Source of the DNA: Sphingomonas sp.
GTDB lineage: Bacteria; Pseudomonadota; Alphaproteobacteria; Sphingomonadales; Sphingomonadaceae
NCBI RefSeq assembly: GCF_017304615.1
Contig: NZ_JAFKLZ010000001.1
Coordinates: 744,001-808,000 of the forward strand
Length of the DNA: 64,000 nt
Reading direction: 5' to 3'
How positions within the stretch are numbered: position 1 is the stretch's first letter; the number at the start of each line of letters is the position of its first letter. Below the pieces are notes generated by a model. It was not told the DNA's origin. It made no database searches and was given only the letters and a program-made list of their open reading frames with translations. The position numbers and the translations under genes were made by a program. Positions 3,529 through 25,173 of the stretch are shown here, in pieces.

Positions 3529-3562
3529 GGGCGTGGGCTGGCACTCGGATCATGGATGGCCT

Positions 3563-6085: not shown

Positions 6086-6097
6086 GTTTTGAACCTG

Positions 6098-6940: not shown

Positions 6941-7071
6941 CTTTCTTCTCCGGGTCGACGATCGTCGGCCGGATTCAGGGTGGCAATCACCCCCTTCGAC
7001 GAAATTTTATCCTCTGTTCGTGGTAGGATGATCGGTTCGCTCGATCTCCCCGGCCGCCATGCCGGCGAAGG

Positions 7072-7995: not shown

Positions 7996-8943
7996 ATGTC
8001 GGAAGGCCGTCCTCAACTGAACCAAGACCCGCGTCTTCGGGCGATGATTATGCCCATCTTCCGCTTCGATCCTAACTCGCCATCGGACCGGCCATTCGGT
8101 CTGGGAACGGCATTCCGGATCGATCCGTGGGGAAACTGCGCGACCGCCTTCCACGTAATCGAGGAGATGCTGAAGCTCTACAAAGGCAAGGTTATCTTAC
8201 GCGATGACGTGCGGTTCGCGGCCCTCGAGATCGAAGGCATCCTCTACGGCGCGCCTCCGGTTCCGAAGGATGCTTGGCGCCCCCTCTCTGGTTTCTATGC
8301 CGAGGCGGGCGCTACCCAACCGGCGCTGCTGCACGAGAAGCCCGAGATCAAGAACTTGACGGAGATCGCATGCCTGACCATCGGCCGATCGCACCGCAGG
8401 ACGCCGATGCCCTATATGCCGGTGGCGCTGACGTCGGAGCCGCCCGGAGTGGGGGACGTCGTCACGGGCTACGGCTTCGCAGGTTTGGACGTAGCGAAGG
8501 ACGGCAAGGGCGAGGACCGGCCGATGACCCAGTATCTCTACGAGAGCGCGGGGAAGGTGATCGAGGTCACTCCTGCCGACCTGCAGTCGACCATGCCGTG
8601 GCCGCGCTTCCGGGTGTCCGCCGAATGGCCGAGCGGTATGAGCGGCGGTCCGGTCGTCAATGCGGCGGGCAACGTGATCGGAGTCATATCGCGCGGTTGG
8701 ACCGGCGAGGCGGATTCGACGGCCACACACTTCGCGGGATGGGATGTCAGCCGGCGGACCTTCGCCTCGCTCGATCCTTTCGCACCGAGGCGGTTCCGTG
8801 CGTTCGCCGCCATTGATGGCGATGGCAACGTCAGGTTCGCGGGACAGGACGTTGACGAGGCGAAAGCGTTCGCGGCCAAGGCAGGTCTCACGGTCCGAGC
8901 AGTGTCCTTCAGTCCTGACACAGGCGAATGGCTCTCGATTTGA
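7996..8943 (+). CDS. Trypsin-like serine protease family protein
   Basis: A 315-residue protein with the trypsin-fold landmarks GLGTAFRID followed by CATAFHVIE (putative catalytic His about 53) and SGMSGGPVVN (putative nucleophile Ser about 217). The strand that usually carries the catalytic Asp (DIALL) reads TEIACL here, so Glu may replace Asp or the triad may be incomplete. There is no signal peptide, so it is probably cytoplasmic, unlike housekeeping Deg proteases, and it lacks a PDZ domain. It is divergent from imuA across a LexA box. An in-frame ATG at 7888 is an alternative start. Proteases of this kind occur in defence islands, but a role here is only inference. Confidence 0.72.
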   Translation: MSEGRPQLNQDPRLRAMIMPIFRFDPNSPSDRPFGLGTAFRIDPWGNCATAFHVIEEMLKLYKGKVILRDDVRFAALEIEGILYGAPPVPKDAWRPLSGFYAEAGATQPALLHEKPEIKNLTEIACLTIGRSHRRTPMPYMPVALTSEPPGVGDVVTGYGFAGLDVAKDGKGEDRPMTQYLYESAGKVIEVTPADLQSTMPWPRFRVSAEWPSGMSGGPVVNAAGNVIGVISRGWTGEADSTATHFAGWDVSRRTFASLDPFAPRRFRAFAAIDGDGNVRFAGQDVDEAKAFAAKAGLTVRAVSFSPDTGEWLSI

Positions 8944-9019
8944 CGCAACGCCGTTCGCGTCGCGCAGCCCGCTGGTCGAGGATCGAAACAGAGCCGGAAG
9001 GGAGTTTGCTGCGCGCCAT

Positions 9020-10897
9020 TTACGTAGCCGCTCGTGTCGGTTGGCGAGCACACTTCGCTCGCTGGGTTTGCTGGATGAAGAGCTCAGCAGCCGGGCGATC
9101 GAAGCCGGTGCCTTTTCGCGGCAGTCCCGCGCGCGCTGCGGCCGACAGGGCGGCCATCGACGACAGGCCGGTGCGAAGCGCCAATTCGGTCAACTGCATC
9201 GCGCGGCGCACGGTCTCTTCGACCGCCGCGACCGGCACCTGACCGACGTGGCCGTCCGAATTCGGCCACTGGTCGAGAACGATCGCGGCATTTCGCGAGT
9301 AGAGGTTCAGCTCGAGCCGGACGTCGACCTTCGACATCTTCGGAGAATATGCGAACGTCGTCTGCGGTTCGGTCAGCCCCTCGATCTGAGGGAGATCCTG
9401 GCGGCGGATGCGCAGGCGGCCGGCGATGCCGCGACCGGTATCCGCGACGGTCGCGGCGATCTCGCCCATCGCCATTGCTTCGAGCAGCGGTCCCCACGGC
9501 TTCAGTCTTCCGCCGGCCGCAAGCAGGCCGACGGGCACGGTGACGGTGTCGGCCGCGTGGCATTTGGGCAGAGCGGTCAGCCGGCCGATGAACGCATCCA
9601 GCGACCGCGCGCCGACGAGACCCTCGGGTCGGGTGACGGCGATGATGGCATCGAGATGATGCTCGAGCGTTCCCGACGCGATCAGCTGCTCGACGCCGCG
9701 CCGAGGTATCCCCAGCCGGCTGGCGGCCTCCTCGATCGGAACGCCGTCACCGGTGGCGTCGGCGGTGCGGCGGACGGCATCGGCGCAGAGTAACGGGACC
9801 GGGTTTCCGTTCCAGAGCGCGAACAGCGCGGGTATTTCGCCGGCCCGGCGAAGGTCGGCCAGCACGCCGGTGCGCCGACCGATGGCGCGAGCTGCTTCGG
9901 TGATGCCGATTCCCCTTTCGTGGATGCGCGCGTCGACCAGGTCGGTGTCGATGTCGTTCCTGAAGCGGCTGATGAGAGCCTTCACCGCCGGCCTTTCCAC
10001 CGTCGACGTCGCGCTGCGCAGGAAGCGCATCGTCGCGCCGCGATTGCCATCGGCGTATCGGCCGACCCGTCGGGCGACGCGTTCCGAGATCATGCGCTCG
10101 AAGCCGTTTGGCCAGTCGGAGAGCATGGGCCACGCGTCTGCGAGTGCGGCCGTCCACGCAGCCGGGTCGCTCGTCCACGACGGTGATTTGGACGACCTGA
10201 TGTCCGGCGAGGCGGCGCAGGCGATGCGGATAGCGAGCGCAACGGCGCCTCCCGGTCCCAGATCCCTGACCTCCTCGGGCAGCGTTGCCATTGCCGCCGC
10301 GCGCCGTCCGGCATCCCAGTGGAGGAGACTGGAGATGGATGCGAGGTTCGGTCGATGGCGTTCGGGCACGAGCGGGGCCGGTGGGGACGTCAGGGAGCGC
10401 GCGCACTCGTCGCACCTGTCCACGCCCATCGTGCGGGTCCAGCGCTGTCGTGCCTGGCAGTCCGGATGGGGGCACGCCTCCGCCAGCATCTCCCAGGTCT
10501 CGCCGCAGAAGGGGAGGATCCGGAGCTGCCACATCGCGCGGTGATGCCTAGAGGTGGCGTAGCCCGTCGGCGAGAAGCGGCGTGCGCGTATCTCGAGCCA
10601 TCTGGCGTCGACCTCCACGCCGAAGAAGAGGCGCCGGTGGGCATCGGTCTGCGGATACGTGCGGCCGGCCAGGTCCTGGGGATCCGCGCCGAGGCAGTCT
10701 GCGACGACCGCGACCTCGTCGCTGCGCCGCAGCGTCATCGTGGGGAAGCAGTGTGCCGACGCGCCGGCCAGCGACGTCACGTCCAGAAGGCGGTCGAGAT
10801 GGGCGCCGGCGACACGCTCGGCGACGTATCCGTCGAGATGCTCGCCGGGCAGGGGGTCTCGGCCCGGTGGGAGGCGCCAAGGCGCATGGATCGTCAT
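9020..10897 (-). CDS. tniQ: TniQ/TnsD family target-selection protein
   Basis: A 625-residue protein starting at ATG 10897, which overlaps the tnsC stop by 4 bp. The N-terminal half has the TniQ layout: an opening PLPGEHLDGYVAERV, then a zinc ribbon with Cys about 142, 147, 162 and 165 (CPHPDC and CDEC). The long C-terminal half has several helix-turn-helix-like stretches (GITEAARAIGRRTGVLADL, and IEEAASRLGIPRRGVEQLI). TniQ/TnsD proteins bind the attachment site and recruit TnsC. The length is nearer TnsD than the short TniQ of Tn5053 or CAST elements, which fits recognition of a fixed target such as the adjacent tRNA-Cys. Confidence 0.85.
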   Translation of the reverse strand: MTIHAPWRLPPGRDPLPGEHLDGYVAERVAGAHLDRLLDVTSLAGASAHCFPTMTLRRSDEVAVVADCLGADPQDLAGRTYPQTDAHRRLFFGVEVDARWLEIRARRFSPTGYATSRHHRAMWQLRILPFCGETWEMLAEACPHPDCQARQRWTRTMGVDRCDECARSLTSPPAPLVPERHRPNLASISSLLHWDAGRRAAAMATLPEEVRDLGPGGAVALAIRIACAASPDIRSSKSPSWTSDPAAWTAALADAWPMLSDWPNGFERMISERVARRVGRYADGNRGATMRFLRSATSTVERPAVKALISRFRNDIDTDLVDARIHERGIGITEAARAIGRRTGVLADLRRAGEIPALFALWNGNPVPLLCADAVRRTADATGDGVPIEEAASRLGIPRRGVEQLIASGTLEHHLDAIIAVTRPEGLVGARSLDAFIGRLTALPKCHAADTVTVPVGLLAAGGRLKPWGPLLEAMAMGEIAATVADTGRGIAGRLRIRRQDLPQIEGLTEPQTTFAYSPKMSKVDVRLELNLYSRNAAIVLDQWPNSDGHVGQVPVAAVEETVRRAMQLTELALRTGLSSMAALSAAARAGLPRKGTGFDRPAAELFIQQTQRAKCARQPTRAAT

Positions 10898-11862
10898 GCG
10901 GCGAACGGATTGACCGAGATGAAGCGGTTCTCGATCGCGTAGCCATCGGTCGCGTATTCGAGGTCGACCCTCTCGATCCGGTCGCTGCCGCGACCGACCG
11001 CCTCGACGAGCGCCTCCCGGATGATCGAGCACAGTTCGCGGATCGACCCGCGCGAGGCCAGCCACAGCTTCTCCGCCGTGCTGCGGCGAGCGAGGCCCGA
11101 GATGTTCGGCAGGATGTCGGCGTCGACGATCGCGGCATCGAGCGCATCGAGGAATTCGAGGTAGATGGCGCGGTCCACCTCCTCGTCGGCCCAGTCGATG
11201 GGGTCCATCTTGATCGGTGCGCCGAGGCGCTGGCGGAGACCGGGTGCCATCTTGAGCGCGGTCCGGGCGTCCTCGCTCCCCACGAACGCCACGGGACACA
11301 CGCCGGCGTCCATCACGTGCTGGCGGATCGCTGTGGCGATCGATCCTGCGACCGTGTGGCGCCGCGCCGCGCGGTTGAATTCGTCGAACACCAGGAGCTG
11401 GACACCATGGCGGCGCAACGCTTCGGTCGCGCGGATCCACCGGACACCCTCCCTGCCGGCCGTCGCCTTCGGCTCTCCAAGGCTGGCCAGGATGGCCGTG
11501 GGGACCGAATCGGTCGTGCCGGCGGTGTCGATCTCGACGAGCAGGACGGGGCACTGTCCGGGCATTGGACCGGAGCTTTCGTCGACGAAGTCCCTCAGCA
11601 GCTCGAGCATCACGGTCTTGCCGGCGCCGAAGGGCGCCACGAGGTAGGCGCCGCGCTTCGGCTGCCCGGGATTGTGCAGCCCGGTCCGGCGGATCAGGTC
11701 GAGGGCGCTGATCGCGGCGTCCTGCCGTTCGTAGCGGACGCGGATGCCGTCGAAGCGACCGATCGCCTCCGCCACGCGCTCGTTGTGCGCGGAGGGCTTG
11801 TGCTCGGGCGATCCGGTGATCGCGCGCGGCGCGGATTCTTCCATCGGGGAACTCCTATTCAT
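10894..11862 (-). CDS. tnsC: TnsC/TniB-like AAA+ ATPase
   Basis: A 322-residue AAA+ protein. Walker A is APFGAGKT at about residues 76-83 and Walker B is LLVFDEFNR with D160 and E161; an arginine-rich sensor region follows (QRLGAPIKMDPIDWAD). TnsC-type ATPases form filaments on target DNA, link TniQ/TnsD to the transposase and give target immunity. The start overlaps the tnsB end by 8 bp and the stop overlaps the tniQ start by 4 bp, so translation is probably coupled. Confidence 0.87.
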   Translation of the reverse strand: MNRSSPMEESAPRAITGSPEHKPSAHNERVAEAIGRFDGIRVRYERQDAAISALDLIRRTGLHNPGQPKRGAYLVAPFGAGKTVMLELLRDFVDESSGPMPGQCPVLLVEIDTAGTTDSVPTAILASLGEPKATAGREGVRWIRATEALRRHGVQLLVFDEFNRAARRHTVAGSIATAIRQHVMDAGVCPVAFVGSEDARTALKMAPGLRQRLGAPIKMDPIDWADEEVDRAIYLEFLDALDAAIVDADILPNISGLARRSTAEKLWLASRGSIRELCSIIREALVEAVGRGSDRIERVDLEYATDGYAIENRFISVNPFAA

Positions 11863-14014
11863 ACTGGGGATGGCGCCGGCGCGACCGACCGACCGGGCGG
11901 GGGGCGGGGGCGTCGTCGTCGTCGTCGTCGACGGCGGGTCGGGGGCGGCCGCCCCACGGCTTGCGTGGCGCGAGGATCTCGGTGTCCAGGGCGGTGAGCG
12001 ACTGCAGCTGGGCGGGGATGAAGTCGGCCATCGCTGCGGACTCGGCGGTGCTCGTGTCGAGGTGCTCGATGGGCCCGGTCAGCGCGCGGATGCGCGGAAT
12101 CTCATACAGCTTGGCGACGGCGGCGCGCGCGCGGGCGCTGGCATTCGGGTCGAGCGCCTTCACGAACTCGACGAGACGGTTGCGCGTCGCGCGCAGCGTG
12201 GCGGGGTCGATATACGCCTCGCCATCCGCCTTCATCTGGGCCAGCACCTGCTTGTGGACGGCGAGCGGCATGCCCTCGCAGTATTCCGGATCGCTTGCAC
12301 GCAGTTCGACATACTGGCGCGTTTTGACGTTCCAGACCCAGATCGATCCGATGTTCAGCGGATCGTACTTAACCTTCACCGTGGCCGTCTGCTTGCCGGC
12401 GCGGCGTCGCCGACCTTCGAGCGGGAGGAGATCGCCGAGTAGCTCCTGAACGGCGCGCGCACCTTGATAGCGCATTCCCCAGAGTTCGATGCCGCTGTTC
12501 GTCAGGGTGGCGGCTGGAATGACGGGCATCGATTCGATGCAGAACGCCCGCAGGTTGGGCGGATTGACAAGGCCATGCTGGCCAGCGAGCTCCTCCCAGA
12601 GCAGGGCGGGGGGACGCTTGCCCTCGAGCCGGTTGGGCCTGATGTTCAGATGGGCGATGGCATGGCGGGTGACCGCCTCTACCTCGTCGATGACGTGGAA
12701 CGCCTCGGCCTCGCCGTTGTAGTCGCGGCGGCGGGACTCCGCGATCGGGATGGCGCGGCCGCGCAGCCTCCAGCAGACGTAGCGGTTGAGGGTGCCGAGC
12801 TTGCGTTCGCCCTTCGCCTTGTGGCGGGGATGGTTCTTCTTGACCCAGCGGATGCTCGTCCCGATGCCCTTCGCCGCGCTCTCGAAGGAGAGGCTGCGGA
12901 GTTCGGGGCCGTTGTCGACGATGGCCAGTCTGATCGTGCCACGCATCGACCGCAAGGCCGGGAACTGCTCCGCGAGATCGGCCGGGGGCTTCTTCGGCTT
13001 CGCCACTTCGAGGAGCAGCTTGCTGATCGTCCAGGTGCTTGGCTCGTGGAAGGAGATCAGGTGGCCGACGATCGCGCCCGTGGCGACGTCGACGGCAAGG
13101 CTGAGCCAAGGGCGGCCGAACACCATCCGGCGCTCGGGGTCGACGCAGTAGACGTCCATCTCGGTGTGATCGATGATGACCTTCTGCATCGCGAAGCGGG
13201 CGGTGAGAGCCTTTCCGCCGCCCTCATAGTCCTGGTAGGCGGCCGCTTCGCCGATCCTTTCCGCCTCGGTCGCGCGCTGCTTGAGCCTGATGCAGTGGCG
13301 GTAGATCGTCCAGTAGGACTGGACGGGATGGGGGACGTCGGGTTTGGGGTAGAGGTCGCTTCGGCCCTCGTTGATCGCGTTCATTTCGGCTTCGTAGCCG
13401 TCGTGGACGGCATAGTAGGGCATGTCCTTGGCGAAGTGGAGGAGGACGTGCTTGGCGCGCACCTCCGCCGCGACGTCGGATACGTTGGGCGCGAGCCGCA
13501 TGCGGCCCTGCATCGCCACCATGTGACGTGGAAGCCTGGAGTGTACATGTCCACGGGTGCGCCGCCACTTGCGGACGGTCTCGCCCTTGGGGCGCGGGCC
13601 GACGTCGGCCTCGTGCTTCGCGGTCCACTTGGCGCTCAGGAAGATGTCGATGGCCTTGGCGCCGTTCGGAACGCCCGCCGCGTCGCACATCGTGCATGCG
13701 GCGAGCCGGACCTTCGCGACGGGATCGAGATCCTTGAGGTCGTCGTAGCACCACTCGGACGCGTTGCGAACGGCATCGGTCTTGTCGGTGCTGGCAGGGG
13801 GGAGGATCTCGACCGCCTCGGCTTCGAGGAGATCCTCGAAGTCGTCGTCGGTCGGCATGCCGACCGTCCCGTCCCGCCGCTTCATCACGAAGGGCGCGGA
13901 CCGGTTGGGATCGAGGAAGTTGAGGAAGTTCGCCGCGTAGCCCTGCCAGACGTGGCCGACGCCGTGAATGAGCACGAGCGCGCCCGGCGGGAATACGTTG
14001 CGGGGCCTGCTCAA
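11855..14014 (-). CDS. tnsB: TnsB-like DDE transposase (Mu/Tn7 type)
   Basis: A 719-residue protein; the TTG at 14014 overlaps the stop of sORF2. The RNase H fold core has IDHTEMD (first Asp about 282), AIVDNGPE (second Asp about 367) and GERKLGTLNR (Glu about 403), a D-35-E spacing that looks complete. A Mu-type beta-barrel domain follows (NIGSIWVWN about 555-565), then a C-terminal tail with a run of six aspartates encoded by a GTC repeat near 11,911-11,931. TnsB binds the transposon ends, cuts the 3' strands and joins them to the target; the tail usually contacts TnsC. Confidence 0.9.
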   Translation of the reverse strand: MSRPRNVFPPGALVLIHGVGHVWQGYAANFLNFLDPNRSAPFVMKRRDGTVGMPTDDDFEDLLEAEAVEILPPASTDKTDAVRNASEWCYDDLKDLDPVAKVRLAACTMCDAAGVPNGAKAIDIFLSAKWTAKHEADVGPRPKGETVRKWRRTRGHVHSRLPRHMVAMQGRMRLAPNVSDVAAEVRAKHVLLHFAKDMPYYAVHDGYEAEMNAINEGRSDLYPKPDVPHPVQSYWTIYRHCIRLKQRATEAERIGEAAAYQDYEGGGKALTARFAMQKVIIDHTEMDVYCVDPERRMVFGRPWLSLAVDVATGAIVGHLISFHEPSTWTISKLLLEVAKPKKPPADLAEQFPALRSMRGTIRLAIVDNGPELRSLSFESAAKGIGTSIRWVKKNHPRHKAKGERKLGTLNRYVCWRLRGRAIPIAESRRRDYNGEAEAFHVIDEVEAVTRHAIAHLNIRPNRLEGKRPPALLWEELAGQHGLVNPPNLRAFCIESMPVIPAATLTNSGIELWGMRYQGARAVQELLGDLLPLEGRRRRAGKQTATVKVKYDPLNIGSIWVWNVKTRQYVELRASDPEYCEGMPLAVHKQVLAQMKADGEAYIDPATLRATRNRLVEFVKALDPNASARARAAVAKLYEIPRIRALTGPIEHLDTSTAESAAMADFIPAQLQSLTALDTEILAPRKPWGGRPRPAVDDDDDDAPAPRPVGRSRRRHPQYE

Positions 14015-14168: not shown

Positions 14169-15032
14169 TCAGGTCCTCTTGCTGATGGTCACAGGGGTGT
14201 CGTCGTTCAGCCACGCGCGAAGGTCGAAGGTCACGCGGTGGCGGACGACGAGGGCATGGATGACGGCCTTGCCGTAGACCGGCCTGTCGGGTTCGAGGCA
14301 GGCGGCGAGGCATCCGTATGCGATCGTGCCGTTCGTCTTCGCGAGCCTCTCGATGCAGGCGAGGTGCCTGAGCGTCGGCTCGACGAACTGATGCATGGCG
14401 ACGAGCTCGCAGTTCCTGCTGTGATGGCGGTTGGCGAAGATCTGGTCGCGCATGACCACCTCGGTCTCGAGGCCCTCTCGGCGGAAGCATTCGAACGCGA
14501 TCGCGAGATGCTGGCGGTATTTGGGATTCGCCAGATCGCGTTCGCTCCGCTTGATCTCGATCGCGCGGCGGACGCCGCTGCGGAACGTGACGAGCGCGTC
14601 GGCCGTGTAGGTGAACTTGCGGCCGTCGGCCGGGATGTTGACGACCACGCGCGGCGTCTCGGTCACCACGAAGGCCACCTCGGGGTCGCTCTCGCACCGG
14701 GTGACGAACGCCTCCGCAGCCTCGCCTTCGCAATGGAGCGTGCGCTTGGCGCGGAACGACTGGATCTGGGCGCATTCGCTGCCTCTCGCGCCGGCGAACG
14801 TGCGGATGCTGCCGCCGTCCTTGGCCAGCATGACGGTGGCGACGATCGGACTCGCGGGCGATGCGAACGCACCGATGCCTTCGCCGATCCGGTGGGACGA
14901 CAGTTCGTATGCATCGCTCAGCGGTCCCGGCTGGAACGGTGCGAGGTCCACGCCGACCTTCTCCCTGGCGGGAACGGTGCGCGGATCGAAGGTCTCGACG
15001 TCCCAGCTGCGGGCGAGGGGTTCGAAATACAT
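14169..15032 (-). CDS. tnsA: TnsA-like endonuclease
   Basis: A 287-residue protein placed as in Tn7, upstream of tnsB. The core FTYTADALVTF then VRRAIEIKRS gives the D145, E159, K161 set of a PD-(D/E)xK nuclease, as in TnsA, which cleaves the 5' strands so that the element moves by cut-and-paste. The C-terminal half has a winged-helix-like character. The start overlaps the sORF1 stop by one base (TGATG), and the stop is 2 bp from sORF2. Confidence 0.82.
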   Translation of the reverse strand: MYFEPLARSWDVETFDPRTVPAREKVGVDLAPFQPGPLSDAYELSSHRIGEGIGAFASPASPIVATVMLAKDGGSIRTFAGARGSECAQIQSFRAKRTLHCEGEAAEAFVTRCESDPEVAFVVTETPRVVVNIPADGRKFTYTADALVTFRSGVRRAIEIKRSERDLANPKYRQHLAIAFECFRREGLETEVVMRDQIFANRHHSRNCELVAMHQFVEPTLRHLACIERLAKTNGTIAYGCLAACLEPDRPVYGKAVIHALVVRHRVTFDLRAWLNDDTPVTISKRT

Positions 15033-15229
15033 CAGTCGTCACCCCGGGCGGTGTCGCGACCGGACGTTGGATCGACGACTGCCCCCGCGATCGTCCCGTA
15101 GGTGATCGCGACGTCGGCGCCGCCATCGCGGCGGCGGCCGACCAGCCTGCCGTCGCATATCGCGATGCGGCAGCGGTCGCCGCCGATCTCTAGCGGCATG
15201 CCAGGGTTCAGGTTGAGGTGTTGCGTCAT
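15032..15229 (-). CDS. sORF1, 65-residue first gene of the tns operon
   Basis: A small ORF with a strong ribosome site (AAAGGA) before ATG 15229. It overlaps the tnsA start by one base. Its opening LNPGMPLEIGGDRCRI resembles the N-terminus of TnsB here (VFPPGALVLIHGVGHV), and its middle VAITYGTIAGAVVD recalls the beta-hairpin motif of sORF2. These likenesses are weak and by eye only. As first gene of the operon, next to the palindrome at 15,241-15,266, it could be a regulator. Confidence 0.5.
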   Translation of the reverse strand: MTQHLNLNPGMPLEIGGDRCRIAICDGRLVGRRRDGGADVAITYGTIAGAVVDPTSGRDTARGDD

Positions 15230-15240
15230 GGAGGGCGTCC

Positions 15241-15266
15241 TTTCACCAACCTGATATGTGGTGAAA
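15241..15266. promoter_or_regulatory. Inverted repeat in the divergent promoter of the tns operon
   Basis: TTTCACCA-N10-TGGTGAAA is a perfect 8-bp-arm inverted repeat 12 bp upstream of sORF1, in the 118 bp shared with the divergent gene at 15,348. A second, smaller palindrome (AACCA-N6-TGGTT) is at 15,290-15,305, and a TATATT box near 15,313 could be the -10 of the rightward gene. The repeat is probably an operator for a dimeric repressor. Confidence 0.6.
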
Positions 15267-15347
15267 TCGACCTCCGCCGCAAGCTCTTTAACCATCTTTG
15301 TGGTTGGTAGGGTATATTTTTAGGATTCCGGGTGGTAGCGGTCAGGG

Positions 15348-16400
15348 ATGGACGCGGATGTTCAGGACGACCCGGGCGATCTGATCCGCCGCAACTTGTT
15401 CGGCGGCGACGAGGAGCGCGAGATGGCGGCGTTCGGAGCGCTCTCTCCTCAGCGCAGGGTCCGCGTGCTCGACCGGCTCCGCGCCATAGACGGATACGAG
15501 CGCGCAGGGCGGACGATGGCGGCGGCGGCGGACTGCGCGGCCTCGGTCGGGATGTCCACCGGCGGCTTCCTGAATCTGCGCACGCGGGCGGTGAAGCACG
15601 GGCCCGTCACCGGCATGGCTCCGTATCAGCGGCGCCAGCAGCGCCCGTCCGCCAGCCGGGACGGGCTGCCCGCCATTGCCGAGAACGTGATCAGGCGGAT
15701 GTTGGCGGCCGACCCCGCCGCCCGGACGTCTGCCATCGTCGCGGCGGTCGAGGACCGGATGGCCCGGTCCGGCAGGGGCGCCATCCCGACCACCACGGTC
15801 CAGCGCCGGATCGAGGCCGTCAGGGGCAGGCGGCCGCGCTTCCTGGCCGTGGGGCGGCGGGTTTCCGTCGTCCAGCTCCGCTGCCGGACCGAACTGCTGG
15901 GCGACGAGTGGCTGACGATCGTCTACGACGAGGACTGGTCGATCGTGTTCGGCAACGCGAACGACGCCGACCCGGAAGCCAGCCTGGAGCAGGCGCTGAC
16001 CAGCGCCGTGGCGGGGATAGGCGATCTCGCTGCCGCCGGCGTGCCGATTTCGGCCCGCGTTGAGCGTGTCGCCGTCCGGGTCGCCCCGGCGATGTCCGAA
16101 TGGGTCGGCCGATGGGAGCGCGAAGCGGGCAGGATGCGTCCGGACGTCGAGTTTCGTGGGGAGTACGGGAGCGGGGCGGCGTCGGTCCCGGTCCTGGGGT
16201 CCGTGGCTGTCGGCGGCGTCGTCGGACTGGACCCGTTCGCCTTGAGGCGTCTGGTCCGGGAATGGAATGCGGGCCTATTGGACCGCGCGCATCCGCGCGC
16301 GCGCACGGGGGTCGACGACGGGTCGGCGCTGCGCACTGCGCTCGACACGCTGAGGCTGCGCTTCGGCTCGGGGTCGGCGACGCAGGCCGTCCCGGCCTGA
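15348..16400 (+). CDS. Transposase-like protein without DDE triad (paralogue A)
   Basis: A 350-residue protein divergent from the tns operon. Residues about 30-110 resemble the N-terminal helical DNA-binding part of Mu/TnsB-type transposases (LSPQRRVRVLDRL, then SVGMSTGGFLNLRTR). A second helical region follows (about 110-170), ending TTVQRRIEAVRGRRP. From about 175 the pattern of an RNase H fold can be followed (VSVVQLRC, EWLTIVYDEDWSIVFGNA), but the catalytic acidic residues are absent. The layout matches the convergent gene at 16,403-17,329. I infer a domesticated transposase relative, perhaps a DNA-binding regulator or accessory factor. The function is unknown. Confidence 0.6.
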   Translation: MDADVQDDPGDLIRRNLFGGDEEREMAAFGALSPQRRVRVLDRLRAIDGYERAGRTMAAAADCAASVGMSTGGFLNLRTRAVKHGPVTGMAPYQRRQQRPSASRDGLPAIAENVIRRMLAADPAARTSAIVAAVEDRMARSGRGAIPTTTVQRRIEAVRGRRPRFLAVGRRVSVVQLRCRTELLGDEWLTIVYDEDWSIVFGNANDADPEASLEQALTSAVAGIGDLAAAGVPISARVERVAVRVAPAMSEWVGRWEREAGRMRPDVEFRGEYGSGAASVPVLGSVAVGGVVGLDPFALRRLVREWNAGLLDRAHPRARTGVDDGSALRTALDTLRLRFGSGSATQAVPA

Positions 16401-16402
16401 CG

Positions 16403-17329
16403 TCATCGGGCGATCGAGGCGTTGCGGCGCGCGACGAGCAGGTCGATGACGGCCACGGCGTCCTCGACCAGCGTCGGCGCGAACGCGGGCGGATGCCTGT
16501 TCGGCCACGATCGCGAGATGCTGACCTTGCCGATGCGCGATCCGAACACCGCATGCAGCGCCGATCCGGTGCCGAGCTGCCGCGATCCGGCGAGATCGAG
16601 GGCGATGCCGTGCTCGCTCAGCTGCGCGACGAGTTCACCGGGCACGTCGGCGAGGTCCTTCGTGACGAGCAGCGTGCGCCGGGGACCTCCGGCAGCGCCG
16701 AGTTCCGGCGCGATCAGATCGGCCAGGTCGATGGCGCTTGGCCGGCCGGCGACCAGGCGGTGCGCCAGGATTCGGCCGGTTGGGATGCAGACGACCACGG
16801 CGAGCGCCGCCGGCTGCGGCCCGCCGGGCATGTCCAGCAGGATGTCGACGCCGGCGGCATCCAGCACCAGGTCGCCCTTCCGCCTGAGCGCGCGGGCCAC
16901 GTCGGGCGCCCGCGCCATGGCGGCGTCCATCCTCGCGATCCGGCTCTTCACCGCGTTCGCCGACGGGTTCGCCAGGCCTGCGGCGGCGCAAAGCGATTCC
17001 ACCTGGCGGATGATCGCGGCGAGCGGGGCGCCCGGGCCTGCCGCGCGGACGGCATCGGCGACGATGCCGTCGAGCGCGTCGTCGAGCCTGCCGCCGCCGC
17101 CCCTGGTCTCGATCGTGTGGCGGGGGCTGCCGCTCGCCTTGTATAGCGTGGCGATCCGGTAGAACGGCTGGAGGCCGATGCCCATCGCGGCGCCGGCGCG
17201 CATGGCATCCTCGACCGACGGGCGCTCGATGGCGAGATACGCCTCGAGCACGTCCGCGCGTCGGCGCGTCTCGCTCCAGTTCCTGGGCGTCAGGTCGGCG
17301 ACCAGCGTCGCCAGGGTCTCCGGCGTCAT
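16403..17329 (-). CDS. Transposase-like protein without DDE triad (paralogue B), LexA-linked
   Basis: A 308-residue protein with start ATG 17329; an upstream ATG at 17428 would read through the LexA box. The N-terminal region (LTPRNWSETRRRADVLEAYL, then MGIGLQPFYRIATLYKASG) looks like the helix-turn-helix part of Mu/TnsB transposases. Residues about 155-270 follow an RNase H fold (VDILLDM, ALAVVVCIPTGRILAHRLV, RTLLVTKDLADV, then SALHAVFGSRIGKV), but the position of the essential Glu reads His-Ala and the DNG motif is TKD. It is therefore probably inactive as a transposase. It ends 2 bp from the convergent paralogue A. A nine-codon ORF and a LexA box lie upstream. Confidence 0.6.
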   Translation of the reverse strand: MTPETLATLVADLTPRNWSETRRRADVLEAYLAIERPSVEDAMRAGAAMGIGLQPFYRIATLYKASGSPRHTIETRGGGGRLDDALDGIVADAVRAAGPGAPLAAIIRQVESLCAAAGLANPSANAVKSRIARMDAAMARAPDVARALRRKGDLVLDAAGVDILLDMPGGPQPAALAVVVCIPTGRILAHRLVAGRPSAIDLADLIAPELGAAGGPRRTLLVTKDLADVPGELVAQLSEHGIALDLAGSRQLGTGSALHAVFGSRIGKVSISRSWPNRHPPAFAPTLVEDAVAVIDLLVARRNASIAR

Positions 17330-17355
17330 CGCCGCCGCTCGCGAGCTTTGCGCAT
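17326..17355 (-). CDS. Nine-codon leader ORF (MRKARERRR)
   Basis: An ATG at 17355 with a good ribosome site (AAAGGA, about 7 bp upstream) opens a frame of only nine codons, six of them for Arg or Lys. Its TGA overlaps the ATG of paralogue B (ATGA). The strong site belongs to the mini-ORF, and paralogue B itself has none, so translation of paralogue B may depend on re-initiation. It could also simply be a coupling device. Confidence 0.4.
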   Translation of the reverse strand: MRKARERRR

Positions 17356-17389
17356 TTCTTGTCCTTTCAGCCGATTGCCACCGGCTGAT

Positions 17390-17404
17390 GTTCTTAATAT
17401 GTTC
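17390..17404. promoter_or_regulatory. LexA box upstream of paralogue B
   Basis: GTTC-TTAATAT-GTTC is a perfect GTTC-N7-GTTC operator, 35-49 bp upstream of the leader ORF. It is the fourth perfect box in the first 17.4 kb and ties a gene of the transposon region to the SOS response. Confidence 0.82.
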
Positions 17405-17420
17405 TTTTCTCGGTTTTGCG

Positions 17421-17483
17421 ACTTGCATCGAGGGGACGGGTCCGCCCAGCTCGTTGCCGGGCGCGCCCGGTTCCGGACTTGCA
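17421..17483. repeat. Internal copies of a transposon-end motif
   Basis: ACTTGCA (17,421-17,427) followed by GGGGACGG (17,432-17,439) repeats, with one base less spacing, the ACTTGCA/GGGGACGG arrangement of the right end (25,130-25,149). A second ACTTGCA is at 17,477-17,483. They may mark an older transposon end or binding sites for TnsB or its relatives. Chance in GC-rich DNA cannot be excluded. Confidence 0.35.
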
Positions 17484-17557: not shown

Positions 17558-17842
17558 CTAGCGTTGGTTGGGCGCCAAGCTGGTCAGAAGGTCGCCGAGC
17601 TGCGCCATCGCCGGACCGACGAGGCGGTAGGTGATCGTCCGTCCCGACGTCTTTCCCTTGATGAGGCCGGCGGTCGATAGCGTCTTCAGGTGGTTGGACA
17701 GCGCGCTGCGCTGTAGCTTCAGCCGGTCGGCCAGGACCGATGCCTGCAGTCCTTCTGGGGACTTCGCGAGTTCGCGCACGACGTCGAGCCTCGTCCCGTG
17801 GGCGAGCGCGGAGAGTTTCGCGACGGCGTTCGCGCTGTTCAT
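17558..17842 (-). CDS. ArsR-family winged-helix regulator
   Basis: A 94-residue protein with the ArsR/SmtB layout: KLSALAHGTRLDVVREL, then the recognition region LADRLKLQRSALSNHLKTLSTAGLI and the beta-wing GRTITYRLVG. The usual metal-binding cysteines are missing, so it is more like a generic or SdpR-type repressor. The start is taken at ATG 17842; an upstream start at 17884 is possible. It faces a divergent gene pair across a palindrome at 17,905-17,928 and may repress both units. Confidence 0.82.
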   Translation of the reverse strand: MNSANAVAKLSALAHGTRLDVVRELAKSPEGLQASVLADRLKLQRSALSNHLKTLSTAGLIKGKTSGRTITYRLVGPAMAQLGDLLTSLAPNQR

Positions 17843-17904
17843 GTCCCGGACTCTGGCCGATCGGAGGCGTAATCTCAACGACAACTAGCGCCAGAACGGA
17901 TAAG

Positions 17905-17928: not shown

Positions 17929-18034
17929 TGAATTGTTGAATCCGTCCACTAGATGTCCGCGCGCCGAGGTCGCCGATACTGCCTGGATCGAACACGGGGC
18001 GGCCGCGATCCTGAGTCAAGGAAGGGAAACCGAG

Positions 18035-18844
18035 ATGCTGGATTTGATCGACGAGCCGCAGGTCGCGAACGCGAACGGAAGGAACTCTTCGAGCGGGGGG
18101 CGCTCCTGCGGGGTCGCGCTGGTGAGGGAGCCGACGCCGCCCGTGGCTGCCGGCCGGTATCTGCCGGGACCCGGAGAGCTCGAGGTCGCCGACCTCGACC
18201 CGTTCGCCGCCGACGAGATCTCCGATGGCTGGGCGCGCGTGTCCACGCGGCAGCTCCTGCGCCTGGCGATCGTCGCCGCCGACACCGGGGCGCGGTTCGA
18301 GCGCGAGGGGATCGGGCACGATCCGGTCGCTTGGCTCCTTGCGCCGCGCGAGCTGTTCTGCGGCAGCGCGGCGCTCACCGCCTGCCAGTCGGTCGGCGGC
18401 TTCTCGCGCGCGCTGATGCTGCACGGCCTCGGGCTCGGCCTCGATGGCGATCCTGCCGTCATCGATGGTCTCCTGGCCGACGACGCGGAGGCGCCCCCCG
18501 GTGTCGGGACGTCCGTGCGGGACGAGGACGGTGGCACGCCCGCCGGTCTCGGTCTGTTCACCTGCTTCGTCCAGAGCTCGATGGCTGATGGCGAGGTGTT
18601 CATCGAGGCGGTGCGCGCGATCGTCGCCACGGAGGAGGGGGAGGTGAGGTCGCTGCTCGAGCGGCGCTACGGCCTGAAGACCGCGCGCGGCGCCCGCATC
18701 GAAAGGGGTTTTCCGGCCGACGATCCCGACGTCGTCAGCCTCGTGCCGAAGCCGGCCGGCGACATGATCGCCGCCATCGCCGCCAACCCCACCGGCCTGC
18801 TGGCGCGGGGCTTCGACCTCACCATCGAGCACCGCCTCGCATGA
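18035..18844 (+). CDS. Hypothetical protein, coupled to an exonuclease gene
   Basis: A 269-residue protein with a good ribosome site (GGAAGGG before ATG 18035). It has a helical central region (STRQLLRLAIVAADTGARFE, then DPVAWLLAPRELFCGSAAL and FSRALMLHGLGLGLDGD) and no signal peptide or membrane segment. I do not recognise the family. Its ATGA overlap with the following DEDDh exonuclease gene implies coupled translation and a shared task, perhaps as partner or adaptor. Confidence 0.55.
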   Translation: MLDLIDEPQVANANGRNSSSGGRSCGVALVREPTPPVAAGRYLPGPGELEVADLDPFAADEISDGWARVSTRQLLRLAIVAADTGARFEREGIGHDPVAWLLAPRELFCGSAALTACQSVGGFSRALMLHGLGLGLDGDPAVIDGLLADDAEAPPGVGTSVRDEDGGTPAGLGLFTCFVQSSMADGEVFIEAVRAIVATEEGEVRSLLERRYGLKTARGARIERGFPADDPDVVSLVPKPAGDMIAAIAANPTGLLARGFDLTIEHRLA

Positions 18845-19740
18845 GGTCGCAGCGGGAGGTCGCCGCCGTCCCGATTCCCGTCGAGACGCTTGCGCGCTCG
18901 ATCGCTCGGCATCCGGACTATCGCGTGCAGCGCCGGTCGGTCGACCTGGACCGGCGCGAACCACGGCTTCGCAAGACGGGAGAGCTGTCGGTCGCGGTCA
19001 TCGACTGCGAGACGACCGGAACGGACCCGACCAAGGACCGCATCATCGAACTCGCGGTGCAGCGCATCGCCGTCGATGGCCGGGGCGCGATCGTCGAGAC
19101 GGGACCGATGCGCAGCTGGCTGGAGGATCCGGGCATGCCGATCTCCGCCGAGATCTCGCGGATCACCGGAATCACCGACGCGGACGTGCGCGGTCTCAGG
19201 ATCGCAGACGGCGAGGCGTATTCGATGATTGCCACCGCCGACATCCGCCTGGCGCACAACGCGGCGTTCGACCGGCCGTTCGTGGACCAGCGTCTCGAGC
19301 TGGGCGGCGAGGCCTGGATCTGCAGCCTCAACGACATGGACTGGACGGCCCACGGCTTCGAGTGCCGGAAGCTGGGCTGCGTGCTGGGCCGGTGCGGCGG
19401 ATTCCATGACGCCCATCGCGCCGCAGGCGACGTCTCGGCGCTCGTGAACATCCTCGATCACCGCCTGCCGGGCGGGTCGACGGTGATGCGGGAGCTGATC
19501 CGGGGAGCGGCGCGCCCGACCTATCTGGTCGAGGCGCCGAAGACGCCGTTCGCGGCGACGCAGGAATTGCGTGGTCGCGGATACCGCTGGGACGAACGGC
19601 GCAAGCTGCGCTGGCGCTACGTCGGCGAGGAGGCCATCGATGCGGAAGTCGAATGGCTGATCAACGACGTCTATGCGGGCAAGCGTGAACCCGTCGTCGA
19701 GCGCGTCACCTGGCGTGAGCGGTACTCGTTGCGGGAATGA
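18841..19740 (+). CDS. DEDDh 3'-5' exonuclease (DnaQ-like)
   Basis: A 299-residue protein. Motif I is VIDCETTG (D55, E57); ISRITGITDADV is the usual link; motif II is LAHNAAFDRPF (Asp about 144); motif III is DAHRAAGDV (His about 194, Asp about 199), so the DEDDh set looks complete. Such enzymes degrade DNA or RNA from the 3' end. The C-terminal 100 residues (GYRWDERRKLRWRYV) are a short domain often found after these exonucleases. It overlaps the preceding unknown gene by 4 bp, is not part of a polymerase operon, and sits in the cargo region, so a defence or repair role is likelier than proofreading. Confidence 0.85.
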   Translation: MRSQREVAAVPIPVETLARSIARHPDYRVQRRSVDLDRREPRLRKTGELSVAVIDCETTGTDPTKDRIIELAVQRIAVDGRGAIVETGPMRSWLEDPGMPISAEISRITGITDADVRGLRIADGEAYSMIATADIRLAHNAAFDRPFVDQRLELGGEAWICSLNDMDWTAHGFECRKLGCVLGRCGGFHDAHRAAGDVSALVNILDHRLPGGSTVMRELIRGAARPTYLVEAPKTPFAATQELRGRGYRWDERRKLRWRYVGEEAIDAEVEWLINDVYAGKREPVVERVTWRERYSLRE

Positions 19741-19837: not shown

Positions 19838-22126
19838 ATGGATCAGGAGACGATCGAGTCGGCGGACGCGGCTTCGCTCGATGCCGGCGGAGAGGGACGG
19901 CCCAGCCATCTGCCGATGGCCATCCAGAGCGGCATCCTCAAGAGCCTGGGGATCAACCTCTACACCAGCATCGGCAAGGTGATCGTCGAGTTCATCGCCA
20001 ACGCGTATGACGCCGATGCCACCCGCGTCGAGATCACGATCCCAAGCGACCGGATCGCGGAGGAGCGGACGAAGGCCAAGGCCATCGCCGACGCGGCGAT
20101 CGCCGCTGCCGAGGCTGCGGCCAGCGGGCAGGGGACGCTCATGTCTGCAGAGGTCTCGCAGCCGGCTGGGCACAAGGCGCTGAACCTCGAGGCGCTGTTC
20201 GAGACGCTGCCCGCCGACGTGCAGGTCGTGATCGAGGACGATGGGCATGGAATGACCTGGGAGGAGGTTCGCGACCGCTTCCTCCCGCTCAATCGCCAGC
20301 GCCGGGCTGACGCCAAGGGTCATGAGGTCCTCCTCACGTCCCCAGGCGGTCGATACGTCATGGGTCGCAAGGGCGTCGGCAAGCTGGCGGGGTTCGGTGC
20401 GGCGCTGACCGTGGAGATTTGGACCAAGCGCAGGGGCGAGACGTCCGCGACCATCATCACCCTGGTCGACGAGGATCTCAACCACGCTGGGTCGATCCAC
20501 GACGTGCGCGTTCCGGTTCGCTATGAGGACGGACTTGACGCGGACAGCCAGGGGACGCGCGTCACGCTGAGCCGACTCAAGGCCGACGCGACGCGGGACA
20601 CCATGGACAAGATCCGCAAGGTGGTGACGAAGTCGTTCCACGCGATCCGGCCCGAGGATTTCTCCATCGAGATCAACGGCGAGCAGCTGCGCTTCGAGCT
20701 TCCCGACTACGAGTTCGTCTTCCCGACCGATTTGACGCGCGATTCGATCGCCGCCGGCGCGCGGCAGGAGGCGTCCGTCGTCGTGCCGGGCGCAGGCGTG
20801 CTGCGCTATCGCTATTACGTCGGATTCCTGCAGCGGTCGCACGCGGGCGGCGAGGAGCGCGGCGCCACCATCTACTGCAACAACCGCCTCGCCGCCGGTC
20901 CCGCACTGTTCGGGCTGCCCCCGGGCATGCACAGCTTCCATTCCGTCGACTACATGGACTGCATCATCGAGGCGGACGATCTCGACCGCACCGACATCGA
21001 CTTCGTGAACACGGCACGGAACGGCATCAAGGAGGGGAACGAGGTCGTCAGCGCGCTGTTGGAGGGAGTCGTCCGCGCCATGCGCGGCGCGATCGCCGCG
21101 CACGCCCGGTTCAAGAAGCAGGAGACCGACCGCAAGCTGCTCGAGGACCGGACCGCGCGCGTCATCGCCGCCACCATCGAGACGCTGCCGCCGAAGACCC
21201 GCAAGGCGGGCAAGAAGCTGCTTCAGACCCTGGCGAGCCGGTTCGAGGTCGGCACTCCCGAGTTCGAGGAGCTGGCCCCGACCATCGTGAACTCCATCAA
21301 TGCGACGGAGGTGCTCGTCGCGCTGGCGTCGCATGGCACCGACGCGGCCACGATCGCTCAGATCATGGGTCAGCTGCGCCAGCTGTCCGAGATCGAGAAG
21401 CAGGATTCGCTCAAGCTCTACCGCGCCCGTCGCGGCGGCATCGAGAAGCTGGAGATCCTCTACGAGAAGGGGAAGGACAACTGGAACAAGCGGCAGTTCG
21501 AGAAGGAGCTCCACCGCCTGCTGAAGGAGAATCCCTGGCTGATCCGGCCTGAGTTCTCGACCTACATCTCCAGCGACCAGAGCATCAACACGACGGTGAC
21601 CCGGCTGGCGCGAGAGTTGAGCGTGGATCAGTTTGCGCCGATCGTGAACGGCGACGAGCCGGCGGCCGACAGGCCGGATCTGGTGTTCCTGATGTCCGAT
21701 CCGATGGAGGAGGGGCCCTACACGGTGAAGATCGTCGAGCTGAAGAGCCCGGCGCTGGCGCTGAACATCGACCACTGGCGGCAGCTGGAGAACTACATCG
21801 CCGACGTGAGGGCATGGTGCGAGGCGAACCTGCCTCATGTCGTCCGGATCAACGGCTATCTCATCGGCACGATGCCCGAGCCCAATCCCACGAAGCGCGA
21901 GGAGAGGATGCTGGTCGACACCTATCGCGACAGCGGTCCGACGGGCCCGATCCAGATCATCGGTCTGCTCGAGCTCATTCGGCTGGCGCGAACCGTGCAC
22001 GTCGAGGCGATCAAGGCGCTCGAGCGCGACCTCGCCGGCGAGGAGGACGAAACCGTCGAGGACGTCGAGGATGACGATCCGATCACCGAGGACGACGAGA
22101 TCTGGAAGGCCGACGCTGCGTCGTGA
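19838..22126 (+). CDS. GHKL (Hsp90/MutL-type) ATPase with C-terminal PD-(D/E)xK-like nuclease domain
   Basis: A 762-residue protein; start ATG 19838 has a GGAAAGGGG site upstream. The N-terminal ATPase shows the N box EFIANAYDADA (51-61), G1 EDDGHGM (133-139) and G2 GRKGVGK (176-182). A helical linker follows (about 390-600), then RPDLVFL (Asp about 613) and KIVELKSP (Glu about 632, Lys about 634), the signature of a PD-(D/E)xK nuclease of the Shedu/DUF4263 kind. This fusion suggests ATP-gated DNA cleavage. It is convergent with a cytosine methyltransferase gene 36 bp away, so it may be the restriction half of a restriction-modification pair. Confidence 0.8.
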   Translation: MDQETIESADAASLDAGGEGRPSHLPMAIQSGILKSLGINLYTSIGKVIVEFIANAYDADATRVEITIPSDRIAEERTKAKAIADAAIAAAEAAASGQGTLMSAEVSQPAGHKALNLEALFETLPADVQVVIEDDGHGMTWEEVRDRFLPLNRQRRADAKGHEVLLTSPGGRYVMGRKGVGKLAGFGAALTVEIWTKRRGETSATIITLVDEDLNHAGSIHDVRVPVRYEDGLDADSQGTRVTLSRLKADATRDTMDKIRKVVTKSFHAIRPEDFSIEINGEQLRFELPDYEFVFPTDLTRDSIAAGARQEASVVVPGAGVLRYRYYVGFLQRSHAGGEERGATIYCNNRLAAGPALFGLPPGMHSFHSVDYMDCIIEADDLDRTDIDFVNTARNGIKEGNEVVSALLEGVVRAMRGAIAAHARFKKQETDRKLLEDRTARVIAATIETLPPKTRKAGKKLLQTLASRFEVGTPEFEELAPTIVNSINATEVLVALASHGTDAATIAQIMGQLRQLSEIEKQDSLKLYRARRGGIEKLEILYEKGKDNWNKRQFEKELHRLLKENPWLIRPEFSTYISSDQSINTTVTRLARELSVDQFAPIVNGDEPAADRPDLVFLMSDPMEEGPYTVKIVELKSPALALNIDHWRQLENYIADVRAWCEANLPHVVRINGYLIGTMPEPNPTKREERMLVDTYRDSGPTGPIQIIGLLELIRLARTVHVEAIKALERDLAGEEDETVEDVEDDDPITEDDEIWKADAAS

Positions 22127-22162
22127 CGCGGCAGAGGTCCTGGCCTTGCGTCGCGCGCCTCG

Positions 22163-23152
22163 TCAGGCGGCCAGCCGTTCGACTGCCGCTGCCCTGAAGG
22201 CGGCCATCACGCTGCTGCACACCGCCTCGGCGAGCGCTACCGGGACGCCGTTCCCGATCTGCCGTGCGACGGGATAGGGCTTGCCGACGAACTGCCAATC
22301 GTCCGGCACGCCCTGCAGCCGGGCACCCTCGCGGAGCGACAGGCACCGGTCTTCCGTGGGATGGAGGTAGCGCCCCTTCGATGGATTCTGGAAAGTACAC
22401 CGAAGCGTGTTGGCCGGCTGAGACGGATCGATCCGGCCCCAGACGTCGGTCGCCTGGCACCCGACCTTCTCCCATGAGGGCGGGCACAGGTGCGGTGCGA
22501 GCCGCATGACGTCGCGCTTGTCGCCCTTGGGCGGGATCAGGGCGATGCGCTGGGCGGCGATCCCGACCGGCGTCGGCCATACGTGCATCGGGTCCCCGGT
22601 CCGGATCGGCCGGGCGAGGACGTCGCCTGCGGTCCGGCGCTCGCGCTTCGACGGAGCGGGTTCGGCGATCGCGCCGATCTTCGAGGCGATGGTGAAGGAG
22701 CGACGGCGTAGCTGCGGCGCGCCGTAGTCGGCCGCCTCGAGCTCCCAGGCGTTCACGTCGAAGCCCAAGGCCTCGAACGCGACGACGAGCTCGCGCCATT
22801 TGGCGGAGCGCAGGAACGGCGGGACGTTCTCCACGACGACGACGTTCGCGCCGGTCATCGCCGCCCAGGTCGGCACCGCGAGGGCCAACGTGTTACGCAC
22901 GTCCAGAGGGTCCTGTCGGCCGAGCGTGGAAAAGCCCTGGCAGGGCGGTCCGGCGAGCAGGACGTCGACCTTGGGCAGGTCGCAGCCATCGAGCACGGAT
23001 CCGACGACGCCGACCGGCGCGATGTTCGCATTGTAGCTGGCGATGGCGTCCTTCGAGAGATCGATCGCGAACGCGGGCGTCATCCCCGACCGGACCGCGC
23101 CGGCGCTGAACAGCCCGGCGCCACTGAACATGTCGGCGAAGTCGATCCGCAT
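22163..23152 (-). CDS. DNA (cytosine-5-)-methyltransferase
   Basis: A 329-residue C5 methyltransferase. Motif I FADMFSGAGLFSAGA is near the N-terminus; motif IV is GPPCQGFS with catalytic Cys about 71; motif VI is VVVENVPPF; motif VIII is GAPQLRRRSF; motif X is QIGNGVPVALAEAV. The short variable region implies a single, unknown recognition sequence. It is convergent with the GHKL-nuclease gene and divergent from an HTH gene, with the promoter operator covering the start codons (ATG 23152 or ATG 23161). It likely protects host DNA from a linked nuclease. Confidence 0.92.
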   Translation of the reverse strand: MRIDFADMFSGAGLFSAGAVRSGMTPAFAIDLSKDAIASYNANIAPVGVVGSVLDGCDLPKVDVLLAGPPCQGFSTLGRQDPLDVRNTLALAVPTWAAMTGANVVVVENVPPFLRSAKWRELVVAFEALGFDVNAWELEAADYGAPQLRRRSFTIASKIGAIAEPAPSKRERRTAGDVLARPIRTGDPMHVWPTPVGIAAQRIALIPPKGDKRDVMRLAPHLCPPSWEKVGCQATDVWGRIDPSQPANTLRCTFQNPSKGRYLHPTEDRCLSLREGARLQGVPDDWQFVGKPYPVARQIGNGVPVALAEAVCSSVMAAFRAAAVERLAA

Positions 23153-23190
23153 AATACGCATAGCCAATAATGCGGAATATGCGTATATGC
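23149..23190. promoter_or_regulatory. Inverted-repeat operator between methyltransferase and HTH regulator
   Basis: GCATAATACGCATA (23,149-23,162) and TATGCGTATATGC (23,178-23,190) form an inverted repeat that differs by one inserted base, with a related ATGCGGAATATGCG between. It covers the methyltransferase start and the upstream region of the HTH gene, as in controller-regulated restriction-modification systems. Confidence 0.65.
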
Positions 23191-25166: not shown

Positions 25167-25173
25167 TCGCCGC

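Follow-up and report, generated by a model that had tools for sequence, protein, structure and literature searches.

Adjoining the tnsA-tnsB-tnsC-tniQ genes of a Tn7-like element in Sphingomonas sp. lie two convergent genes, here called A and B, whose products, judged from their sequences, are homologous to each other and to the DNA-binding part and RNase H-like core of the transposase TnsB. Neither carries a complete DDE triad. The origin and pairing of these proteins are in our judgement close to certain, and the pair has very probably been exchanged as a cassette between transposon cores. Our best reading of its function, for which the chances fall a little short of even, is a two-part sequence-specific DNA-binding regulator acting on the promoter region between tnsA and A, with a link to the SOS response in some elements. 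Throughout, the window denotes the whole 64,000-nucleotide stretch that was analysed.

Layout of the locus

The first-pass annotation of this DNA had described a convergent pair with a 2-bp gap beside an active-looking Tn7-like operon. Both open reading frames are indeed present with 2 bp between their stop codons, and the tns operon adjoins them on the minus strand, its TnsB retaining D282, D367 and E403. With tnsA, tnsB with an intact triad, tnsC and tniQ all found, the host element is classed as a Tn7-like transposon. The features discussed below are as follows.

9020-10900, minus strand: tniQ, start approximate
10894-11862, minus strand: tnsC (TniB/AAA+)
11855-14014, minus strand: tnsB, all three triad residues present
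14169-15032, minus strand: tnsA, profile match below the Pfam cut-off
15033-15347, no strand: divergent tnsA/A promoter region
15348-16400, plus strand: paralogue A, 350 aa, TnsB-derived, without a complete DDE triad
16403-17329, minus strand: paralogue B, 308 aa, TnsB-derived, first Asp the sole triad residue kept
17390-17404, plus strand: consensus LexA box GTTC-N7-GTTC, about 60 bp upstream of the B start
17558-17884, minus strand: ArsR-family regulator adjoining B
17933-18844, B side: gene with relatives in loci L016 and L054
18841-19740, B side: 3'-5' exonuclease
19838-22126, B side: BbrUII-like protein with a HATPase domain, below the NCBIfam cut-off
22163-23167, B side: cytosine methyltransferase

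GC content by codon position is gene-like for A (0.74/0.56/0.89) and for B when read from 17329 (0.74/0.55/0.91). A possible N-terminal extension of B, 17330-17428, has a non-coding look by the same measure (0.48/0.55/0.52), and a start at 17329 is therefore likelier than one at 17428.

Derivation from TnsB

At E<=1, window A and B find no match in Pfam, NCBIfam or PHROG, nor do they in PADLOC at E<=0.001. Family matches to individual alignment rows are scattered: at E<=0.01 a 25-row alignment (A9) gives HTH_23 in two rows and HTH_28, HTH_29, DUF6930, JetD and TnsB in one row each, and a 7-row alignment (A1) gives HTH_28 in two rows and HTH_29 and HTH_23 in one each. Profiles built from seven A and six B proteins align with each other at E 3e-21 (hhalign, probability 99.4%), which bears out the proposed paralogy; against TnsB these smaller profiles give a weak alignment, located in the opening strands of the RNase H core. 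With 25 rows each, the profiles reach E 4e-14 (A) and 4e-16 (B) against the TnsB profile, and the match runs from the N-terminal part through the whole core. Among solved structures, the B profile matches TnsB of ShCAST (E 3.5e-8) and of Tn7 (E 1.4e-5); it also matches two designed proteins (5e-7 and 7e-6), in which no stretch passes alone.

The structure models, low in confidence, agree with the profiles. The model of B (five rows, pLDDT 58.5) has the RNase H order of strands and helices, and its best Foldseek match is ShCAST TnsB (E 1.6e-8), followed by MuA and Tn7 TnsB. There are 73 matches at E<=1e-3, and the best 50 of these 73 are all DDE transposases or retroviral integrases. TM-scores are low over the whole chain (about 0.3) and reach 0.65 when taken by target length (retroviral integrase cores). 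The model of A is poorer (five rows, pLDDT 53.6, core mostly below 50), with one match at E<=1e-3, again ShCAST TnsB (3.2e-4). A Mu/TnsB-type origin with an RNase H-like core, as first proposed from the letters of the DNA, is hence borne out by profiles and models together. A tyrosine-recombinase fold such as that of TnsF does not fit B, given the RNase H order of the model and the best 50 Foldseek matches, all of them DDE enzymes.

The TnsB proteins of Tn7-like elements and CASTs (ShCAST, 7svw and 8ea3; Tn7, 9bw1 and 7pik) are homologous to most of A and B, over the N-terminal DNA-binding part and the RNase H-like core. A and B differ from them in lacking both a complete DDE triad and the C-terminal Mu-type domain; the Pfam domain Mu-transpos_C lies at 502-568 of window TnsB, just below the cut-off, and is absent from window A and B, whose profiles align only to the end of the core. 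Furthermore, A and B come on top of a TnsB gene, in transcription units of their own that diverge from tnsA, and neither lies between tnsA and tnsC, the place of a TnsB gene in the operon.

Loss of the catalytic triad

Both products had been said to lack the DDE triad, and a complete one is indeed missing from every row, 25 of A and 25 of B. In a joint alignment that is unsure around the second and third catalytic columns, D, D and E fill the three columns in 41 of 41 TnsB rows and in 0 of 50 A/B rows; the second column holds an Asp in 17 of the 25 A proteins and in 11 of the 25 B proteins, but amid gaps and in a different local motif, and Glu stands in the third in one of 25 of each. The first Asp survives in most A proteins (23 of 25) and in 10 of the 25 B proteins. 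Window A is gapped at the first two catalytic columns, and its first core strand, read by eye, is RVSVVQL, with V in the place of Asp. Window B has the first Asp (LVLDAAG) and neither of the other two residues. Several A proteins have, again by eye, a Glu nearby in an E-R-R-F-G-like motif, and a few distant A proteins may keep a triad of odd spacing.

Distribution of the pair

Single-sequence searches found A in four and B in nine of 196 genomes of the order, three of the four and six of the nine matches being pair loci. Used as bait, TnsB matched 63 of 396 genomes, and 33 further stretches were examined; a scan of named genomes added 79 loci, and a named-genome scan with the window TnsB alone gave no match. 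This survey of neighbourhoods beside tns genes, which the first-pass annotation had proposed as a check, recovered the convergent pair in 26 loci: a set of 25, window included, and one found later (G174). Of the 25, 21 come from the TnsB-bait stretches, again counting the window, and four from named genomes. Named carriers are Sphingomonas sp. AR_OL41, a Sphingomonas MAG, Sphingopyxis granuli and Qipengyuania sp. XHP0207.

A and B are separated by -107 to 269 bp at all but two of the 25 loci, the exceptions being L065 and L157 with 1.1 and 4.6 kb between the genes; B looks broken in L018, L022 and L076. A single gene of A/B type occurs in L045 and in L066, while L070, L071 and L072 hold four, three and two such genes in other arrangements. 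Some of these copies are nearly identical between L070 and L071. Close tns loci without the pair also exist (L056, identical with L159; L067; L156; L163; L164); L057, identical with L160, and L069 are cut by contig ends. The pair is absent from 70 more distant loci (L165-L234), some of these cut short.

A profile of the 25 B rows, run over 346 genomes of the order, placed 18 matches below E 1e-50, all beside tns genes. Seventeen of these 18 places are themselves rows of the profile, most of them found through TnsB, and G174, with a full tns-A-B arrangement, is the sole new one. No clear orphan pair was seen: in the 346 genomes the B profile gave nothing below E 1e-50 away from tns genes, and its weaker matches, inspected in part, are known A genes or mostly frames of at least 480 aa. 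Homologues lying mostly away from transposons, the finding named beforehand as fatal to the idea, were thus not encountered; G174 is one independent case in its favour, and there is no counter-case.

Several candidates were set aside. Weak matches away from tns genes in G183 (A, E 2.5e-6) and in G039 and G074 (B, 3e-4 and 4e-4) are missed by later profiles even at E 0.01, a short frame at a contig end in G694 scores best as TnsB, and the A/B labels of L049, L050 and L085 were dropped since the iterated profiles had drifted into TnsB fragments. No relative of A, B or TnsB was found in viral contigs. Plasmids gave no B match; TnsB matches 3682 plasmid records, in no case across more than 80% of the query.

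Probable exchange between transposon cores

In a maximum-likelihood tree of 69 proteins, the 25 A proteins and three of 11 extra copies form one clade (100/99), the 25 B proteins and seven extra copies another (98/91), and eight TnsB proteins a third (100/100), apart from A and B. The single gene of L045, which belongs to another Tn7-like element in the genome of the window, groups on the side of TnsB, though the support is weak (94/62). By eye, it reads FDHCLVDIF at the first catalytic strand and has no Asp at the expected second position. This gene is possibly of the ancestor type of A and B. Because it falls on the TnsB side with the second Asp missing, it suggests an order running from TnsB through a dead single copy to the pair, in which a TnsB would have lost its C-terminal domain and catalytic triad and then duplicated.

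Trees were compared over 24 of the 25 loci, L065 being omitted because its tnsC and tniQ lie beyond the contig end. Distances in the A tree follow those in the B tree (rho 0.69; 12 of 21 splits in common; 0 of 500 permutations as high), and those of TnsA, TnsB, TnsC and TniQ agree among themselves (rho 0.75-0.85; 13-15 splits). Between A or B and any of the four Tns trees, rho is -0.12 to 0.08 and one of 21 splits is shared. It is because the A and B trees match each other and not the trees of the tns core that we see the pair as a cassette exchanged between cores. One locus, L019, is a chimera by blastn: L073 matches it only at 8310-11489, which comprises the B-side flank, B, A and the promoter region (75%), and its match to L061 is confined to the tns core, starting at 11875 (71-75%). 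The two parts join close to where tnsA starts.

A regulator needs only its own operator, and so could move between cores without fitting TnsB, TnsC or the ends. The same cannot be said for a heteromer of target selection or immunity, in which A and B would bind particular sites, damaged or replicating DNA, or copies of the element and steer or block TnsC. A device of this sort has to fit TnsC or TniQ, yet no co-divergence with either is seen (rho about 0), and A and B are divergent from tnsA rather than in an operon with tniQ. In favour of such a role, target selection in Tn7-like elements is modular and has in one case drawn on a dead enzyme, as the accessible text of PMC10293859 describes, and the pair is exchanged between cores. 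A damage-linked target would suit both the retention of the RNase H core and a B under LexA. On balance we regard a targeting role as unlikely, without dismissing it.

Decay is a further possibility to be weighed here: A and B might be functionless leftovers of an old second transposase. The lack of a complete triad, the high divergence and the three loci in which B appears broken would be expected of leftovers. They are hard to reconcile with the keeping of the pair in 26 loci, with two deep clades whose trees match, and with an excess of change at third codon positions: between L019 and L073 the changes at the three positions are 0.135/0.093/0.537 in A and 0.191/0.131/0.500 in B. We give this explanation almost no weight.

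Repeats in the tnsA-A promoter region

The 170 bp before A were searched for pairs of 13-mers, direct or inverted, 19-60 bp apart and with 12-13 matches, a pair being significant when reached by at most two of 100 dinucleotide shuffles. Locus-specific repeats of this kind occur in six of 23 testable loci, the window not among them, and the other 17 have none at the chosen threshold. Coding controls gave 1/25 and 0/25, and the region upstream of B 2/24. In the window the best pair has 10 of 13 matches, reached by 36 of 40 shuffles; the region does hold imperfect 22-nt inverted arms at 15245-15266 and 15287-15308 (73% as an inverted pair). L073, too short for the test, has the same motif as L019 though their tns cores differ. 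Repeats in some tnsA-A regions are what an operator would look like.

The repeats also bear on whether A and B are direct inhibitors, occupying the transposon ends or poisoning the transpososome. Truncated transposase inhibitors occur in other elements, Tn5 Inh being an example, and A and B would have the right build for one, with the DNA-binding and RNase H-like domains kept and the C-terminal part of TnsB missing. An inhibitor should match its own TnsB and ends, though, and the trees are unrelated; moreover, in eight of ten loci the promoter motif has no further copy with at most two mismatches (12-22 kb searched in each, tniQ-side flank included; three of the ten were not significant alone). 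Direct inhibition is accordingly improbable in our view. For a targeting role, too, repeats at the pair's own promoter in some loci are an awkward fit.

The independence of the A/B trees from the tns trees, the promoter repeats and the position divergent from tnsA together make a regulatory cassette the best reading. The pair and its promoter region would be kept, nearly always together, between tnsA and the cargo of one Tn7-like lineage. A, alone or with B, may bind sites in the divergent tnsA/A promoter and so restrain tnsABC-tniQ and A itself, with the level of B tipping the balance of control. We infer DNA binding, repression, separate roles for A and B, and LexA action at the box. Points against a regulator are that the RNase H core is kept, and the first Asp in 23 of 25 A proteins, which is more than a plain repressor requires, and that no repeat in the window's own promoter exceeds shuffles, with 17 of 23 loci showing none at the chosen threshold.

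A LexA box upstream of B in some elements

B had been reported to lie under LexA control. For the window this stands as a prediction: a box, GTTCTTAATATGTTC, at 17390-17404 scores 23.5 on a matrix derived from the genus's imuA promoters, where the boxes themselves score 20.5-25.6. As a general property of the pair it does not stand, since a good box occurs upstream of B in four of 25 loci. The genes that supplied the matrix are ones we take to be imuA, the neighbouring imuB having been named by the Pfam domain IMS; 29 of the 30 examined have GTTC-N7-GTTC in the promoter (both strands). A tightened pattern, devised after such sites had been seen, finds nine sites in the 3.34-Mb genome of the window and one in the reversed control. 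Four of the nine fall inside the window, at 541, imuB, imuA and B.

Sites upstream of B score 23.5 in the window, 22.4 in L058, 20.4 in L018, 17.8 in L162 and 13.5 in L021. At a score of at least 10 this makes five of 25 loci against 0.9 expected from shuffles, and leaves 20 of 25 with none upstream of B. In L072 a site scores 17.8, and eight other A/B-type starts in five loci have none above 9.2. By our reading the site overlaps or touches the likely start codon in L018, L021, L072 and L162. In L018, one of the four loci with a good box, the B gene looks interrupted. Absence of the box in 20 of 25 loci and a broken B in three count against a regulator.

A plain GTTC-N7-GTTC scan of two regions in the 25 loci gave 10 matches against 0.55 expected, about half of which score poorly on the imuA matrix. 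By matrix score, the tnsA/A gap gives three loci against 1.5 expected from shuffles. The plain-scan sites of that gap in L016 (14.2), L018 (10.6) and L019 (8.1, in an apparent coding start) were rejected as LexA boxes; those of L062 (9.9) and L068 (nothing above 0) were likewise not counted.

Where the box is present, in the window element and a few others, DNA damage would shift the ratio of A to B and hence expression of the transposase.

Apart from the box at B, consensus LexA boxes of the window stand at 541, 3563 and 7830. Compared with G740, DNA has been inserted twice in the imuA-imuB mutagenesis operon (474-1985 and 3523-7123), whose third gene is presumably dnaE2.

Relation to known systems

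Tn7-like elements, CASTs included, have been widely studied. Among the titles and abstract openings listed for them, with subscription papers mostly outside, none describes such a pair, which agrees with the initial view of something new; the accessible part of PMC8649781 has nothing relevant on TnsB-like paralogs or Sphingo- hosts. The earlier interpretation as a whole is partly supported: for its proposal that the proteins bind transposon ends or targets and act in mobility or immunity, the unrelated trees and the promoter repeats of some loci favour instead a regulatory cassette that has binding sites of its own.

A close parallel is TnsF of Tn6022, an inactivated tyrosine recombinase that serves a Tn7-like element from an operon with tniQ (PMC10293859, available text). 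Like TnsF, A and B are catalytically inactive recombinase-type accessories of a Tn7-like element; unlike it, they derive from TnsB, come as a pair and lie on the tnsA side. The survey in that paper, as its available text has it, sought new target selectors among genes in operons with tniQ or tnsD, and a screen of that kind would overlook two genes placed divergently on the side of tnsA. If the regulatory reading is right, the pair also resembles CvkR (MerR) and the Xre regulators, which give CASTs element-borne control of tns and cas genes (PMC9938897 and PMC11406308, in the parts available). Those belong to ordinary HTH regulator families, whereas A and B come from the transposase itself and as a pair.

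Control by LexA, predicted here for B, would place these elements beside integrons, ICEs and prophages, the SOS-controlled mobile elements treated in the accessible part of PMC12452197. The same text reports no SOS effect on tnsB or cas8 transcripts of a CAST, which its authors regard as consistent with earlier findings on Tn7; in contrast to that CAST, the gene with the box is here an accessory one, and only a minority of the elements have such a box. A long-kept and exchanged pair of dead transposases would show that transposons make regulators, or selectors, from their own enzyme. It would also bring SOS-wired control to the Tn7-like family, for which our search of the Tn7/SOS literature found no example, and perhaps offer a portable on/off module for transposition tools. 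That A and B represent a new type of control, an exchanged two-protein cassette of dead transposases at a fixed position in divergent cores, with its own operator and in some elements an SOS link, is possible, and we advance it tentatively.

Cargo and element ends

The genes beyond B vary between loci, as cargo would: an RND efflux pump, cation efflux, MerR, a major intrinsic protein and ArsR-type regulators are found there. Four more of the 25 loci have, on their B side, a frame similar to the ArsR-family gene of the window, at most 0.3 kb from B in three of them and 4.2 kb away in L062. The stretch 19838-23167 is possible restriction-modification cargo.

These genes matter for the proposal that A and B lie outside the transposon, the element ending in the tnsA-A gap and the pair marking its target. 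It would explain the unrelated trees; no ends were found in the window, and distal ends are tentative at best. Nonetheless, no clear A/B pair without tns genes was found, the genes lying past B in several loci (metal-efflux, MerR, ArsR and aquaporin types) look like cargo, and one genome has, tentatively, a possible distal end about 79 kb off. We consider an outside position very unlikely.

A search of the window for TGT/ACA ends with 5-bp repeats gave no pair above background, and a scan of 20-mers for end motifs produced mostly noise. The tniQ-side ends of L019, L061, L063 and L064 could be read by eye.

In L045 (9146-10597 and 7166-8239), a single-copy TnsB relative is divergent from tnsA and a relative of the window exonuclease at 18841-19740 adjoins. 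A small conserved gene, or pair of genes, lies on the B side in five loci (L019 8309-9105, L021 10827-11555, L022 4417-4875, L059 2434-3239 and L073 10886-11682); the L019 copy has no Pfam match. The elements of L061 and L063 end, by eye, close to a tRNA-Thr(CGT) gene. L063 and L064 lie on one contig (G593 contig 21) and have in common a TGTCAC end and the bases after it, perhaps as a tandem at one attachment site. Lastly, homology of the window to L147, L150, L151 and L152 resumes at the 3' end of a tRNA-Cys gene (25166-25174), and to L153 extends on to 23615, a break such as might be seen for an island integrated at the tRNA.
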